Positions 56,348 to 63,125 of a DNA stretch of 64,000 nt are shown piece after piece. Numbering within the stretch: the stretch's first letter is position 1; each line of letters starts with the position of its first letter. The translations under genes were made by a program, and so were the position numbers. The notes under the pieces were generated by a model. It was given only the letters and a program-made list of their open reading frames with translations. It was not told the origin of the DNA and made no database searches. The DNA comes from Pediococcus inopinatus (GTDB lineage: Bacteria > Bacillota > Bacilli > Lactobacillales > Lactobacillaceae): assembly GCF_002982135.1 (NCBI RefSeq), contig NZ_CP019981.1:1798001-1862000 (forward strand), written 5' to 3'.

Positions 56348-56664
56348 GCTGAGACTTAGGACAGCTCGACAAAATAAGAGGCAAAATATAAGCATGACTC
56401 CCGCGGGATTGCGATCCCGCATACGTCCACCTACTATGTTTTTTTCCACTGAGACTTAGGACAGCTCGACAAAGCAAAGAGATGAAAATAGCCAAGGTTC
56501 CCGCGGGATTGCGATCCCGCATCCACCACCTACTATGCTTTTTTTGCTGAGACTTAGGACAGCTCGACAAAATAAGAGGCAGAATATAAGCATGACTCCC
56601 GCGGGATTGCGATCCCGCATACGTCACGCTTATATTCTGCCTCTTACCATTTTGTCTCGCTCAC
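56348..56664. repeat. Three tandem palindromic repeats
   Basis: Units start at 56348, 56448 and 56546 (spacing 100 and 98 bp), each beginning CTGAGACTTAGGACAGCTCG and holding the core CCCGCGGGATTGCGATCCCG (56399-, 56499-, 56598-). Unit 3 is complete: AAGAGGCAGAATATAAGC is mirrored by GCTTATATTCTGCCTCTT, making a 119-bp near-palindrome. Units 1 and 2 share the left half and core but have a different right half (CACCTACTATG plus T run). The core also occurs at 7086-7105. No gene is credible in 56138-56666. Confidence 0.9.
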
Positions 56665-56666
56665 TT

Positions 56667-57500
56667 TTAATTAAACGGATCATAAAATCTTCCCGCATTC
56701 ACCTTAAATAGATACACACCAATCAGCACCACCAGTACAATCACGATCAATGCCAAAAAGTCATTTCTCTTCATCGGTCGCGCCGCATACCAACTTCTTT
56801 TCTTCAGCTTTCCAAAGCGACGGAGCTCCATTGCCTGACTGATCGTTTCAATTCTATCTAAACTCGTAAAAATCAGGGGCAACAAAATTTGAGCCGCCAC
56901 CTTCACTCGATGAGTAATTTTACCCTTCTTAGAAATTTCATTACCTCGTGCCTGTTGCGCCCGACTAATTTGTCGATAATCGTTTTGCACATCTGGAATA
57001 TATCGTAATGCCAACGATACGGCATAACTAATCCGATACGAAATTCCAATTCGATTCAAACTGGAAGAAAATTCACTGGGATTCGTTGTCATCAAAAAGA
57101 TTAATGCCAGTGGCACCGTGAATATATACTTCAAAAATAAATTAAATTCATAAAATAACTGTTCCCAGGTTAAATTGTATGGTCCAATACCTTGCCAAAT
57201 CACGTGTTCAGATCCATACAAATGGACCCCATATCTCGGTCCAAAGATATAGACTGCAATCAGGTTCAGGATGGAAAACACCGTAATGAAACCCAACACA
57301 AAGGATACTTCGTGAAACTTAATCCCCGAAATTCGAAATAACGCCAACGAACAAATCGTTAACACTAATAGGAATCATGTATCAAAACTCACCATTCCGA
57401 TCACCGAAAGCGCAATCATCCCAATTAATTTAGTTGTTCCAGTTAACCGATCCACAAAGTTATCTCGCTGCTTATATCCAATCAAGACATTGTTATTCAT
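56667..57500 (-). pseudogene. ECF transporter T component (EcfT/CbiQ family) with an in-frame UGA
   Basis: The frame from ATG 57500 to 56667 (277 codons) encodes a transmembrane coupling protein, with EISKKGKIT and the ATPase-coupling AQQARGNEI and AMELRRFGKL helices (Ala-Arg-Gly type). Codon 42 (57375-57377 on the plus strand) is TGA in VSFDT-stop-FLLVLTICSL, most likely a TGG to TGA change. Without this the protein would be complete. A restart inside (for example near MLTICSL at 57365) would lack the first membrane part. Follows ecfA by 4 bp. Confidence 0.88.
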
Positions 57501-57504
57501 TGCT

Positions 57505-59202
57505 CTAACCTACCTTTTCTTGATCAATAAAACTAGCAATCAAAGCTTCTGGATCAACCTTCACGCGCTGTGCCAACGTAAATAGACTTGTTTCCACCAA
57601 AGAAGCCTTCTTCAAAAGATCTAAATCGGCAAAAAGCTTCATTGGCTGGTCATCATAGGCGATCACCCCGTTATTCAGCACTATCACGCGATCCGAATAT
57701 TCCATCATTAAATGCATATCATGTGTAATGAAAATGACTGAAATACCTGTCTTTTGATTTAAGTCACGAATAAATGTCAACATCTCTGTATAATGATGCC
57801 AATCTTGACCAGCAGTCGGTTCATCTAAAATAAGCAACTCTGGATTCAAAACTAAAATAGCCGCGATCGTAACCCGCTTTTTTTGACCAAAACTTAAGGC
57901 CGAAATAGGCCAGTGACGATATTCAAACAAACCACAGACTTTTAGTGTTTCGTTTACACGTTTCTCAATATCATCAGACTCAACCTGCCGTAGTGTCAGC
58001 CCTAACGCCACTTCTTCGGAAACAGAATTTTTGGAAATCATCATATTTGGGTCTTGCAGAACGTAACCAATATGATCGGCGCGCTCCTTAATAGAATTAT
58101 CATCAATTACCTGTCCATTTAGTGTCAAACTACCTGAACTTTGATGCAAAAATCCAGTAATGATGTTACTCAAAGTTGTTTTGCCAACTCCGTTTCTGCC
58201 AACCAAGCTAACCATCTCACCAGCCTGAATACTTAAATTTAGGTTGTTTAAAACCTGCTTCGAATCATAACTAAAAGAAATATTTTCAGCCTTCAATAAA
58301 GGTTCTTTGTCTGTTAAATGTGATTGAATGTGCCGTGGCGTGACCCAATTTTTCACGTCTTGAATAGCGTCATTACTTAGCGCTACCTCATTTACACTAT
58401 CCACATGATCAACTTGACTTAAATCGATGCCCGCATATTTCAGCGCAGACAAATAGAGGGGTTCACGCAACCCTAATTTTGCCAAGATACCACTTTTTAA
58501 AATTGTGTCAGGCTTATCATTTGCGACAATCTTGCCTTGATCGACTAAAATAATCCGATCCACGGATTTATATAAAACATTCTCAATTCGATGCTCGATA
58601 ATCACTGTGGTCGTATCACCACTTTTTTGCATCTCATCAATTAATTCGATTGATTCACGACCAGCAACCGGATCAAGGCTGGCGAGGGGCTCATCAAATA
58701 AGAGAATTTTACCTTCATCAACTAAAACACCGGCCATCGATACGCGTTGTTTTTGACCACCCGAAATTTCTTGAGGATGATTATTAATAATTTCAGGGAT
58801 TCCCAATCGTTTTGCCCACTCACTGGCCTTCTGTTTCAAAACGGACTGCTTTTCACCATCGTTTTCCAATGCAAACGCAATATCTTCAGCAACGTTTAAG
58901 CCAACAAACTGCGTGTCTGGATCCTGCAAAACAGTCCCAACCTTCAAAGACAGATCAAATATTGTTTGATCTGCCACTGATTGTCCATTAATTAAAATTT
59001 TGCCACTCAATTTTCCAGGATAAGCTGACGGAATTAGTCCATTCATTAACCGACTAATCGTGGTCTTTCCAGACCCAGATGGGCCAGCAATCAACACTTT
59101 TTCACCAGCATAAATGTCAAAATTTAAATGACTTAACGTTGGTTCTGACTGGCTTTGATACTGAAAGCTGACATCCTGAAAACTAATAATTGGGTTCTTC
59201 AT
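57505..59202 (-). CDS. ECF transporter ATPase, two fused nucleotide-binding domains
   Basis: A 565-residue duplicated ATPase (YkoD-like) energising the ECF transporter. Domain 1 has GPSGSGKTT, ISGGQKQR and LLFDEPLASLD; domain 2 has GRNGVGKTT, LSFGQKKR and LLILDEPTAGQD. The linker spans about 270-300. It lies between the S and T genes (4 bp from each). In lactobacilli, UPF0397-ATPase-T clusters under Met-specific T-boxes or S-boxes have been proposed to import methionine or a precursor (MtsTUV); that is context only. Confidence 0.92.
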   Translation of the reverse strand: MKNPIISFQDVSFQYQSQSEPTLSHLNFDIYAGEKVLIAGPSGSGKTTISRLMNGLIPSAYPGKLSGKILINGQSVADQTIFDLSLKVGTVLQDPDTQFVGLNVAEDIAFALENDGEKQSVLKQKASEWAKRLGIPEIINNHPQEISGGQKQRVSMAGVLVDEGKILLFDEPLASLDPVAGRESIELIDEMQKSGDTTTVIIEHRIENVLYKSVDRIILVDQGKIVANDKPDTILKSGILAKLGLREPLYLSALKYAGIDLSQVDHVDSVNEVALSNDAIQDVKNWVTPRHIQSHLTDKEPLLKAENISFSYDSKQVLNNLNLSIQAGEMVSLVGRNGVGKTTLSNIITGFLHQSSGSLTLNGQVIDDNSIKERADHIGYVLQDPNMMISKNSVSEEVALGLTLRQVESDDIEKRVNETLKVCGLFEYRHWPISALSFGQKKRVTIAAILVLNPELLILDEPTAGQDWHHYTEMLTFIRDLNQKTGISVIFITHDMHLMMEYSDRVIVLNNGVIAYDDQPMKLFADLDLLKKASLVETSLFTLAQRVKVDPEALIASFIDQEKVG

Positions 59203-59206
59203 AAAT

Positions 59207-59764
59207 TTATGACTCTTTCTTTAAGCTGCCTTTCTTGGAACGGGTCCGGGCATAAGCCACCAATAAAATTGTCCCTAAAATTCCGACTGAAAGTGCATTG
59301 CAAATAACCGACGTAATTCCTTGTAAATAAACTTTGGAAGCTGGTTCTGAGTATACCAAAACATCGCCGGTTGGTGCAATAATTCCCCAGACAACAATAC
59401 TGATGATTACTTGGTAAATGTTGAAGAAAACTAACTTACGTTTTGTTAAATCACCAGTTTCAATATTCAAGTATTTTCTAGTTAATCCAAATAGGACTCC
59501 GTAAATACCATCGGCAACAATCCATGTCCACCAAGGCTCGCCCCATGTTAAATCAGTAAACATATGACCGAGAAAGGCAATTAATCCCCCAGCTACTGGT
59601 CCGAAGATTGCACCCATTAATGCTAAAAATCCATATGCCAAATTAATATTTGTATCTGGAACTCCGGTTGGAATCGGAATATAACGCATCAAGACAAAGA
59701 AAATTGCCGTCCCAATCCCAATTGCTACCACTGTTCTTACTGAAATACCTTGCTTCTTATTCAT
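59207..59764 (-). CDS. ECF transporter S component, UPF0397 family
   Basis: A 185-residue substrate-binding membrane protein with about five to six helices. The segments IPTGVPDTNINLAYGFLALM, GAIFGPVAGGLIAFLGH and WWTWIVADGIYG identify UPF0397. AGGGAGAG lies 9 nt before the ATG. It is first in the operon S-A-T. It is transcribed from behind a T-box leader that is now split by an IS element. The ligand is unproven; a methionine-related compound is the best guess. Confidence 0.9.
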   Translation of the reverse strand: MNKKQGISVRTVVAIGIGTAIFFVLMRYIPIPTGVPDTNINLAYGFLALMGAIFGPVAGGLIAFLGHMFTDLTWGEPWWTWIVADGIYGVLFGLTRKYLNIETGDLTKRKLVFFNIYQVIISIVVWGIIAPTGDVLVYSEPASKVYLQGITSVICNALSVGILGTILLVAYARTRSKKGSLKKES

Positions 59765-59812
59765 AAGCTTCTCTCCCTATACCAATATTTTTTTAATTTT
59801 TATTACCAAAAT

Positions 59813-59872
59813 AAAAACGCCCTCTACTTCAAAAACGAAGTAAAGGGCGTTTGACCGCGGTACCACCTTTAT
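59813..59872 (-). ncRNA. T-box leader, 3' part: antiterminator motif and terminator
   Basis: Minus-strand AAAGGTGGTACCGCGGT (59854-59870) is the conserved T-box sequence. It is followed by a terminator, ACGCCCTTTACTTC/GAAGTAGAGGGCGT (59817-59830 with 59837-59850), then a T run (59813-59817). It lies about 50 nt before the S-component start. The 5' part of the leader is at 61308-61500, beyond the IS. Confidence 0.92.
59865..59872. repeat. 8-bp target site duplication, left of ISL3 copy 2
   Basis: ACCTTTAT, repeated at 61308-61315. It falls inside the T-box motif (AAAGGT on the minus strand). Confidence 0.95.
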
Positions 59873-61307
59873 GGGTCTACACTTTCTGGTATTGGTGAAT
59901 AACTGATACCAGTTTTTATTTTGAAAATTAAAAGGACATCTGTCCTCTTTGTGCTACGATTTAATCGCCAAACAAAATCGAAAAGAGGAAAAACAGATGT
60001 CCCTAACTAATTCTATTTTAAGCTTGTTTGAAATGACAGACCCAAATATAACCGTAACTGGTGTTACCAAGAAACGTTGCCCGAATGGACAACGAATTCA
60101 TGTCGTTCACGCCAACCTTTCTTATCAGCTTGTGAAATGTCCCCATTGTGGCCATAAAAGTCTAATTAAAAACGGTACCCACGTTAGTCATCTAAGGTTG
60201 GGAACCTTATCAGGCGGACGTTATGAAATGCAGCTAAGACGACAAAGATATCAATGCCAACATTGTTTAAAAACCTGTAGAGCTAAAACTAACCTCGTTA
60301 GACGTAATGAAACTTTTACCCACAATGTTAAACATCAGGTCATTGTGCTAGCTCGTGACATGCTGACCAGTAAAGAAATCGCTAAAATTTGTGGCATTTC
60401 ACCAAGTAGTGTTCAACGTATTTTAAATGCAAATATTCACTTGGCTTACCGTGTTAAGCAACTTCCGCCAAATCTTTGTTTCGATGAATTTCGTTCCTGT
60501 AATCATCTAATGTCCTTTAACTGTTGCGATGCCGTTAGTCATCGCCGCATTGTGACCCTCAAAGATCGTCTCAGTAAGGATATCATTGATTACTTTGAAG
60601 CTCGTTATTCAGTTCAAGAACGTGCGAAAGTTCAAACAATTACTATTGATATGAACGCCGAATATGCTAGCTTTATTCATCGTTTATTCCCGAATGCTGT
60701 CACGATTATTGACCGTTTCCACATTATTCAGCTTGCTGGTCGTGCACTAGACAATGAACGTACATGTATTATCCGTACTTTTCAAGATAAGCATTCACGC
60801 ATTTACCGCATCCTTAAATCTCAATGGCGTTTATTTCATTTGGCAGAAGAGAAAATCAATGACACTAAGCTTATCTATTTACGAGGCATTAACGAGTATA
60901 TGACCCAACAGAACGCCATCGACCTTGCCTTAGATGAATTTCCAGAATTCAAAACTGTGTATCAAACTTATCAAGGCATTCTAACCGCTATTCACCAAAA
61001 GGATGCCACGGAATTTAAAAATTTGATTACCAACTACCAAGTAGCTGGTAATCAAATGGACGTCACCATTTCAACCTTCGTTAAGAACGGCTCAGCAGTG
61101 CTCAACAGTTGTCGTTATCCGTATTCTAACGGTCCTATTGAAGGACTTAATCGTAAAATCAAGGTATTAAAGCGTAGCTGTTTTGGTTTTCGAAATATTC
61201 ATAACTTCTTCATTCGTATCAGTTTAATTCATGAGTAAACAAAAAGCACATTCACCGAAGTGAACATGCCTTCAAAAATCTCTACCAATACAGTTTGACA
61301 GAGACCC
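59873..61307 (+). mobile_element. ISL3-family insertion sequence, copy 2 (1435 bp)
   Basis: Same ends (GGGTCT ... AGACCC), same length and almost the same sequence as copy 1 at 25042-26476, with its own exact 8-bp duplication. It is inserted in the T-box leader, with its transposase antisense to the ECF operon. Confidence 0.96.
59997..61238 (+). CDS. ISL3-family transposase, copy 2
   Basis: A 413-residue transposase with the same zinc finger, helix-turn-helix and DDE residues as copy 1. It differs by RAK for GAK after CLKTC and DATEF for NATGF, plus a few silent changes. The intact frame and AAGAGGA ribosome site suggest it can still transpose. Opposite in direction to the ECF operon it interrupts. 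Confidence 0.96.
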   Translation: MSLTNSILSLFEMTDPNITVTGVTKKRCPNGQRIHVVHANLSYQLVKCPHCGHKSLIKNGTHVSHLRLGTLSGGRYEMQLRRQRYQCQHCLKTCRAKTNLVRRNETFTHNVKHQVIVLARDMLTSKEIAKICGISPSSVQRILNANIHLAYRVKQLPPNLCFDEFRSCNHLMSFNCCDAVSHRRIVTLKDRLSKDIIDYFEARYSVQERAKVQTITIDMNAEYASFIHRLFPNAVTIIDRFHIIQLAGRALDNERTCIIRTFQDKHSRIYRILKSQWRLFHLAEEKINDTKLIYLRGINEYMTQQNAIDLALDEFPEFKTVYQTYQGILTAIHQKDATEFKNLITNYQVAGNQMDVTISTFVKNGSAVLNSCRYPYSNGPIEGLNRKIKVLKRSCFGFRNIHNFFIRISLIHE

Positions 61308-61315
61308 ACCTTTAT
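61308..61315. repeat. 8-bp target site duplication, right of ISL3 copy 2
   Basis: ACCTTTAT, matching 59865-59872. Confidence 0.95.
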
Positions 61316-61500
61316 TTGAACGCAAACACGTTCCTTAATTCATAAGGGCTTTTAAACCCGCGGCTTTAAATTTTCTTGAGCCACAACGCTCCCAGACCAT
61401 CTTCAGCAAAAACTTCCCACTAGATTTCAACATTCCTAGCTCTCTGTAATTTCCGTTCTTGCGTACTCATCTGTTCACAGCATTTTTTAATATTCTGAAT
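61308..61500 (-). ncRNA. T-box leader, 5' part (stem I region)
   Basis: Read on the minus strand it shows T-box stem I features: GATGAGTA (K-turn and loop E), AGAGAG (distal loop, 61440-61445), GTGGGAAG (61413-61420) and GAAG-ATG-GTC, where ATG (61398-61400) is the candidate Met specifier. It ends ATAAAGGT at the IS border, where the T-box motif should continue. Specifier identity is a guess. Confidence 0.75.
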
Positions 61501-61507
61501 AAGTTTG

Positions 61508-61536
61508 ATGATACTCCAAAATCGCTTTTTAGACAA
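61508..61536 (-). promoter_or_regulatory. Original promoter of the T-box leader
   Basis: Minus-strand TTGTCT (61531-61536), 17-nt spacer, TATCAT (61508-61513), just upstream of the stem I sequence. Confidence 0.6.
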
Positions 61537-61561
61537 GTAGTGAAAATCGTTTTCTGAAAAT

Positions 61562-61607
61562 AAAAATAGTGCGTGTTCTGTATTTTCAAAGAGCACTCAC
61601 TATTTTT
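61562..61607 (-). terminator. Terminator after the PTS operon
   Basis: AAAAATAGTG.GTG.TCT (61562-61579) and AGA.CAC.CACTATTTTT (61590-61607), with a T run on the minus strand. Confidence 0.88.
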
Positions 61608-61619
61608 AAAATTTATTTA

Positions 61620-63125
61620 TTAAGCATTTTTACCAATTGTTTTGCGACGAACAACTTCCTTTTGAGCTGCAACATCGGCATCTTTGAATCCAAATGCCCA
61701 TGTGCACCCAAACGCAACAACTAACGTAACCACCGTTGCAATCCAGAAATTAATTTCATTACTCATCCCACCACCAAATTTAGCAGGGGTGAAGAAGGAA
61801 GGAAATCCGATAATTGATCCGGTAAATCCGTACATGTTTACATTCAAAAGTCCGGAAACTAAGCCACCGGCCGCGGCACCAATACTAGCCGTCAAGAATG
61901 CCCGTCCGTATTTCAAGTTAATCCCGTAAATGGAAGGTTCCGTAATTCCGACAAAGGCTGAAATTGTAGCAGCACCAGAAAGTTCTTTAATAGATGCATT
62001 TTTTGATTTGATGAAAATTGCTAGAACTGCAGCACCTTGAGCAACCATTGTCATTGAAACAATCGCGTTTAAATAACTGTATCCTTTAGATGCAATATCG
62101 TTTGCAATCAATGGCACAATCGCCCAGTGTAATCCGAAGATAACCAAACTTTGATAGAAGCCACCAATGATTGCTCCGGCAATTGGATAATTGAATTTCA
62201 AAATTGCATCTAATAGCCATGAAATTCCGGTACTTACTAAGGTAATCGCAGGTCCCACAACGATCATGATGATTGCTGATACAAGAATAACTTCAAATAA
62301 TGGCACAAAAATCATTTGGAGAATTTGAGGAATCCATTTTTTTAACCAAATTTCAATGTAGTGGGCCATCCATGCCCCCGCAATGATTGGAAAAATACTG
62401 TACGTGTAATTTACCATGTGAATTGGCAGGCCAAACAGATTCGTGTTCAAGGCCATTCCTAATAAAGTACCCGTTGTTTTGGTTCCGGAAGCAATTGCAA
62501 ATAATGACGGATAAACTAACACCCCACCAATAATAGCCATTATAATTGGATCCGATTTAAGCCTTTTGGCAGCCGTAAACCCAACAATAATTGGTAAGAA
62601 GTAAAAGGCAGAATCACCCATTGCTGAGATAATAATGTAAGTTTGTGATGTTGCAGTCGTCCAGTGAAAATCCACGGCCATTTGGAGTAATCCTTTAAGA
62701 ATACCACTCGCTGCCAATAAACCAACGACAGGCATCATTGAACCCGTGATAACCCCAATTAAGGAATTAAAACCGTCTTTAATTTTATCCTTAAAGCTTC
62801 GATTGTCAGGGCCTTTAGCCGCAGCTGATGTTTCCGCTACAATCGCCGCTGTTGCATCTGGATCCGCATATTCTTGTCCAATTTGTGCAATCACTGCATC
62901 ATAAACTTCAGTAACTGCAGCACCAATTACAACTTGGTATTGGCCTTGTGCATGGCGCACGGTAATGACATCTTCAAAGTTTTGAATCACATCGTCTTTT
63001 GCAATGCTTTCATCTTTTAAATAAAACCGCAGACGCGTAATACAATGAATCAGACTTTTTATATTTTCTTTGCCACCAACATTCTCGATAATGTCGGAAG
63101 CAAGCTTTGTATAATCCTTTGCCAT
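61620..63125 (-). CDS. PTS EIIBC component, glucose/beta-glucoside superfamily (trehalose likely)
   Basis: A 501-residue sugar permease-phosphotransferase. The EIIB domain (1-85) has the phosphorylated Cys28 in LIHCITRLRF; the EIIC domain (about 105-485) has about ten helices and the sugar-site GITEPSIYG. It has no fused EIIA domain; that is the next gene upstream. AAGGGGG precedes the ATG. The divergent GntR gene and a TGTATATACA site in the promoter point to trehalose, but beta-glucoside or sucrose use is possible. Confidence 0.9.
   Translation of the reverse strand: MAKDYTKLASDIIENVGGKENIKSLIHCITRLRFYLKDESIAKDDVIQNFEDVITVRHAQGQYQVVIGAAVTEVYDAVIAQIGQEYADPDATAAIVAETSAAAKGPDNRSFKDKIKDGFNSLIGVITGSMMPVVGLLAASGILKGLLQMAVDFHWTTATSQTYIIISAMGDSAFYFLPIIVGFTAAKRLKSDPIIMAIIGGVLVYPSLFAIASGTKTTGTLLGMALNTNLFGLPIHMVNYTYSIFPIIAGAWMAHYIEIWLKKWIPQILQMIFVPLFEVILVSAIIMIVVGPAITLVSTGISWLLDAILKFNYPIAGAIIGGFYQSLVIFGLHWAIVPLIANDIASKGYSYLNAIVSMTMVAQGAAVLAIFIKSKNASIKELSGAATISAFVGITEPSIYGINLKYGRAFLTASIGAAAGGLVSGLLNVNMYGFTGSIIGFPSFFTPAKFGGGMSNEINFWIATVVTLVVAFGCTWAFGFKDADVAAQKEVVRRKTIGKNA

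Follow-up and report, generated by a model that had tools for sequence, protein, structure and literature searches.

The window, that is, the whole 64-kb stretch of Pediococcus inopinatus DNA analysed here, carries on its minus strand an ECF transporter operon encoding an S component called riboflavin-type (59207–59764; 185 aa; NF010182, 233.3 bits against a cut-off of 99; PF07155), an ATPase with two ABC domains (57505–59202; 565 aa; TIGR04520 and TIGR04521), and a T component (56667–57500) whose gene contains an in-frame TGA at 57375–57377. Directly before the operon, and on the same strand, lies what reads from the letters as the expression half of a T-box leader (59813–59872), consisting of the T-box motif, the antiterminator and a terminator, the last of which was placed by a terminator scan at 59852–59815 as a 17-pair stem. 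The sensing half, comprising stems I–III with the specifier context GAAG-AUG, is located at 61308–61487 (minus strand), and a promoter-like site, TTGTCT-17-TATCAT, which is a consensus match only, at 61508–61536 on the same strand. An insertion sequence (IS) of 1435 bp on the plus strand (59873–61307) stands between the promoter with stems I–III and the antiterminator/terminator part. This arrangement agrees with an earlier sequence-only reading of the region, which had placed the T-box motif and terminator next to the ECF genes and stem I and the promoter beyond the IS.

The IS was assigned to the ISL3 family from its transposase profile, its target duplication and its ends. The 413-aa transposase (59997–61238, plus strand) scored 269.9 bits with NF033550, above the cut-off of 180, and 152 bits with PF01610; the related inverted ends read GGGTCT...AGACCC, and an 8-bp duplication, ACCTTTAT, borders the element on both sides (59865–59872 and 61308–61315). 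The latter copy forms the 3' end of the sensing half, and the former, which reads ATAAAGGT on the minus strand, includes the 5' arm of the antiterminator helix. Across the genome we found 22 copies, 18 with 94–100% identity (window copy included) and four with 80% identity; the near-identity of the copies suggests that the insertion in the window is recent. A second copy in the window (L006; 25042–26476), flanked by the duplication AAATTATT, lies outside terminators by the hairpin-plus-tract criterion used below.

At Rfam gathering thresholds, no T-box match was obtained in the whole 64-kb window. A relaxed scan of 59600–61700 matched RF00230 to 61487–61298 on the minus strand. At 67.3 bits (E 6.4e-14), this match falls short of the family's gathering score of 93; it covers the sensing half and extends into the IS as far as 61298. 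The downstream half by itself reached 20.7 bits (E 0.065). Stem I was thus recognised by the Rfam T-box model, which the sequence-only reading had proposed to run on the joined leader. The same reading had proposed comparison with relatives that lack the IS. The S component is encoded in 6 of the 12 genomes of the genus, this genome among them, and an uninterrupted leader was found beside the S gene in four of the five others, with RF00230 scores of 95.0, 110.6, 113.3 and 117.5 bits; in the fifth, the contig starts 42 bases ahead of the S gene, leaving the leader region outside it. Gene order in the four relatives is PTS IIBC, T-box, S, A and T, with no IS. When the IS and one copy of the duplication were removed by script, the joined leader, which was compared by alignment rather than by Infernal score, aligned with the four relatives from the −35 region to the terminator, including similar sequence at the promoter-like site, and located the insertion point between AAATAAAGGT and GGTACCGCGG. 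Taken together, the sub-gathering score of the sensing half, the intact leaders of the relatives and the alignment identify a T-box leader which the 1435-bp IS has split in two; the element did land inside the riboswitch, as had been claimed, and neither of the results named beforehand as speaking against that reading, a missing stem I or relatives devoid of this leader, was obtained. It had further been claimed that the two halves can no longer fold together. This holds as regards their linkage, but because 8 bp were duplicated, each half is itself complete, with stems I–III upstream and both antiterminator arms plus the terminator downstream; the predicted effect of the IS on the leader is a loss of linkage between complete halves.

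The specifier of the split leader is AUG (methionine), and it is common to all five aligned leaders. Its offset was calibrated on the trpS (TIGR00233) leader of this genome, which carries GAAG-UGG, and on the leader of a metE-like gene (NF005085, 425.8 bits; cut-off 313), which carries GAAG-AUG-GUCU. The same context also precedes genes taken, on their opening residues alone, to encode a MetN-type ABC ATPase and a cystathionine-gamma-synthase-like protein. The alternative specifier GAU (Asp), taken from the Rfam alignment column, was rejected, as the trpS leader has UGG one base further along and as GAAGAUGGUCU leaders stand before the metE-like gene and other apparent methionine genes. By comparison with these other leaders, the split leader is assigned as a methionine T-box, and because of this leader assignment, which is its only basis, the operon is probably that of a methionine-related transporter, with an S family called riboflavin-type. 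In L. plantarum, methionine T-boxes are reported on biosynthesis and transport genes in passages of PMC2494555; the window leader belongs to the same class as these lactobacillar leaders but differs from them in being physically split by an IS. By our own reading, 9 of 26 T-box matches in this genome have a methionine specifier, and two of the nine (L047, C1:6390–6641; L048, C1:2123671–2123922) are identical copies. These two are identical over all 3252 bases and lie at opposite ends of contig C1, representing either overlapping contig ends left unmerged in the assembly or a genuine duplication.

A second T-box in the genome is also touched by the IS. Copy L003 (C1:1421394–1422828) abuts a T-box match (L050; 1422833–1423084) whose 91.9 bits narrowly miss the gathering score and whose context GAAG-AUG again reads methionine. 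In two relatives, the counterpart of this T-box stands before a metA-like gene, whose product in congener G006 scored 253.3 and 226.9 bits with the MetA models NF047918 and TIGR01001, respectively, below their cut-offs. L003 begins at the edge of the terminator loop as seen in the relatives' metA-type T-box. Since L003 has no duplication and its other flank is unlike that of the relatives, a rearrangement has probably removed the gene side here; a search of this genome for a metA-like protein, run without a positive control, gave none. Methionine T-boxes are thus touched by 2 of the 22 copies. The shared methionine identity was considered as a sign of selection and rejected, given that 9 of the 26 T-box matches have that specifier.

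As to the consequence for the operon, the sequence-only reading had left two outcomes, shut-off at the terminator or transcription driven from the IS, and the evidence favours the former. Along the operon strand of the IS, the terminator scan found terminator-like hairpins at 61273–61242, 61057–61021 and 60094–60075, and the segment 60010–59916 forms a fold of −28.0 kcal/mol that has a U-rich tail. Were an outward promoter at the left end of the IS to drive the operon, the ECF genes would have become methionine-independent; one promoter-like match on the operon strand within the IS speaks for this (60039–60010; 9/12, weak), but it lies upstream of both the −28.0 kcal/mol hairpin and the intact T-box terminator, promoter-like matches in the region are not in excess of those in shuffled sequence (4 vs 5.6; consensus scan), and the T gene has a stop, and we regard this outcome as very improbable. 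Loss of control, and probably of the transporter too, appears likelier than IS-driven expression because the IS has these operon-strand hairpins and the T gene an in-frame stop.

The stop also bears on whether the operon had been dispensable and already broken when the IS arrived, so that the element hit dead DNA without effect. All five relatives have a sense codon at the position of the TGA, and no metA-like gene, itself a methionine gene, turned up in this genome, both of which fit such a history. The counts of unique synonymous/nonsynonymous changes do not: they were 6/2 (S), 24/13 (A) and 23/6 (T) in this lineage and 6/4, 24/11 and 22/6, respectively, in the G006 lineage. With amino-acid changes not in excess, long decay of the operon was rejected, and a prior breakdown is conceivable but doubtful. 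The IS insertion and the stop in the T gene both look recent, and a sequencing error is possible at the stop.

We consider it highly probable that a methionine T-box was split by an ISL3 element of a lineage favouring intrinsic terminators, with methionine control lost and the operon largely silent. Transcripts from the leader promoter would run into the IS antisense to the transposase gene and halt at one of its operon-strand terminators, and the remaining transcripts would face a terminator no longer relieved by uncharged tRNA-Met through a linked stem I. Control by methionine would then be lost and the operon largely silent, and the stop in the T gene points toward loss of the transporter as well. 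The targeting part of this account, a preference of the lineage for the A-tract, loop or T-tract of intrinsic terminator hairpins, was shown statistically as described below, with a proposed molecular basis; attenuators such as T-boxes, with their terminator and competing hairpin, would be natural targets. Insertion of an IS into a riboswitch is in itself an ordinary event of ordinary gene decay, and it is the wider terminator pattern, rather than the single insertion, that makes the locus interesting.

The terminator criterion (hairpin plus tract) was fixed after folded empty sites had shown many of them in intrinsic terminator hairpins, and the tests on this genome are accordingly post hoc. 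The background, used also for the sites of other species, comprised 304 kb from this genome in which the IS copies were retained and 151 terminator-like hairpins were counted. Among 21 of the 22 copies (L003, having no duplication, was left out), the centre of the duplication fell in a terminator hairpin in nine, against 1.37 expected for intergenic positions (P = 3.1e-6, post hoc) and 1.34 for A/T-matched positions (P = 2.5e-6, post hoc), and sites of the abundant element lay in the loop in 6 of 17 cases against 0.40 expected (P = 1.6e-6, post hoc). The window's own copy is not among the hits (class 9), as it struck the antiterminator arm outside the terminator stem.

An independent set, with the criterion unchanged, was taken from fragmented assemblies of two congeners, G006 and G007, in which this IS forms the ends of contigs. 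Thirty of the 37 left ends had exactly one partner with an identical 8-bp duplication among the 39 right ends; the 7 left and 9 right ends without such a partner were dropped, including two combinations (L144/L192 and L161/L208) that resemble terminator loops and were left uncounted. Eleven of the 30 sites were inside a terminator hairpin against 1.96 expected (P = 1.6e-6) or 1.91 with A/T matching, 13 were within 10 bp of one (2.94 expected, P = 1.8e-6), and four were in loops (0.70 expected, P = 0.005). All of the hits inside hairpins came from G006 (11/25), with none from G007 (0/5). More distant ISL3 elements, with transposases 30–62% identical to that of the window and mostly from other genera, were examined at 35 loci; 19 had a recognised duplication and 16 were used after three repeats were dropped. 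Here, six sites were inside terminator hairpins (1.05 expected, P = 3.5e-4) and ten within 10 bp (1.57 expected, P = 3.7e-7), with tract edges favoured and none of the 16 in a loop. For plasmid copies of the 80% element, 17 of 21 matches were fetched and six distinct sites with a duplication were used; one repeat and ten matches without duplication were dropped, L103 was added, and L102, which has no duplication, was dropped.

Comparison with positions drawn around each site (hairpin plus 4 bp) gave a more graded picture. For the pooled 58 sites of this genome, the 80% element and G006/G007, 24 hits were observed against 9.5 expected within 100 bp (P = 4.9e-7) and 14.4 within 60 bp (P = 9.5e-4), and the pooled comparison was significant at 60, 100 and 150 bp. 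At 100 bp, P was 0.016 for the element of this genome, 0.14 for the 80% element and 0.026 for the distant elements. Sites in terminators thus exceed both the intergenic and the pooled neighbourhood expectations. Of the single sets at 60 bp, only G006/G007 was significant (P = 0.0017), with P values of 0.15 for this genome's element, 0.41 for the 80% element and 0.21 for the distant elements.

As controls from the same genome, 42 of 58 PF00665 matches were examined, with family labels of our own based on ends and duplication lengths. Thirty-three were used (12 IS3-like, groups of 5 and 6, and 10 IS30-like), five being dropped as their ends were not found (L259, L263, L265, L269, L270) and four for lack of an accepted duplication (L274, L281, L284, L286). 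Hits numbered 0/12 for IS3-like elements and 0/5 and 1/6 for the other rve-type groups, together 1/23. IS30-like elements had 6 of 10 sites in terminator hairpins, four of them in the loop; the copies concerned are L271, L275, L262, L264, L290 and L291. The ISL3 count of 9/21 differed from that of the non-IS30 controls (1/23; Fisher P = 0.0029), IS30 having been excluded after the data were seen, but not significantly from that of all controls (7/33; Fisher P = 0.083). IS30 elements like palindromes, and group IIC introns follow terminators. The IS30-like copies in this genome are thus comparable to the ISL3 copies in position, although the enzyme differs, and group IIC introns resemble ISL3 in their association with terminators but differ in both enzyme and mechanism.

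These sets also bear on whether survivorship could produce the pattern, with the IS entering A/T-rich DNA of whatever kind and persisting only where it does no harm, downstream of genes. The duplications are indeed A/T-rich, terminators mark tolerated places, and in the 60-bp neighbourhood comparison only one of the four site sets stays significant. Against this, the A/T-matched intergenic expectation is still exceeded (9/21 vs 1.34 and 11/30 vs 1.91), the pooled neighbourhood comparisons are significant at all three distances, and the non-IS30 control groups together have only 1/23. Because survivorship alone should act on all IS groups, we hold a target preference of ISL3, shared with IS30, to be the better explanation, and survivorship to be unlikely.

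We tentatively extend this target preference to a broader proposal, to which we give somewhat less than even credence: ISL3 transposases would target terminators, and the elements would bring in their own terminators close to either end, making insertion a cheap swap, with attenuators as costly off-targets, such that IS outbreaks would preferentially strip genomes of attenuation control. What is recognised would be either DNA able to form a hairpin or the place at which RNA polymerase stops transcribing. An insertion into a 3' terminator would replace one terminator by another at little cost to the host, whereas attenuators, T-boxes among them, look like such terminators but sit at 5' ends, where hits would be costly. 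Our confidence was lowered slightly because the contrast including IS30 was not significant and G007 gave 0/5.

The IS in the window shares its transposase (NF033550, PF01610), 8-bp duplications and inverted ends with the ISL3 family, and differs in its terminator preference; passages of PMC5395568 describe the target preference of ISL3 as unknown. A search of open-access literature, by title and the start of the abstract, for terminator preferences of ISL3 or other IS elements gave none for ISL3, apart from one event in E. faecium. According to passages of PMC11702846, the insertion in question has an 8-bp duplication, carries an ISL3 element at one of its ends and falls near the midpoint of a rho-independent terminator belonging to an rRNA operon, by a mechanism termed uncharacterised there. 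That case shares the 8-bp duplication, the ISL3 element and the insertion into a terminator with the copies studied here, but, as presented in those passages, concerns one locus in two revertants under drug selection, and the inserted DNA is larger than an IS. ISL3 is also listed among transposase families preceded by terminators in part of PMC2965389, which fits the terminators carried by the IS here. Elements of the TnGBS, ISLre2 and ISKra4 groups, with Mutator-like transposases, insert upstream of sigma-A promoters, as stated in passages of PMC3942029; they too choose their target by a transcription signal, but the signal is the promoter and the transposases are unrelated. If true, a terminator preference of ISL3 would answer the target question called open in PMC5395568 and would mirror the promoter-seeking ISLre2 and TnGBS elements, and attenuators would be predicted hot spots for IS-driven loss of regulation.

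Two observations concern palindromes near IS sites. Among plasmids from brewery lactobacilli, together with one further genome, the 80% element was found on both sides of the loop of one large palindrome (L105, L102, L114, L119), which suggests separate insertions into one hairpin. In the window, 56581–56638 contains a long palindrome, AGAATATAAGC...GCTTATATTCT, enclosing a GC-rich inner hairpin, and similar arms occur beside the IS sites L105 and L169/L176.
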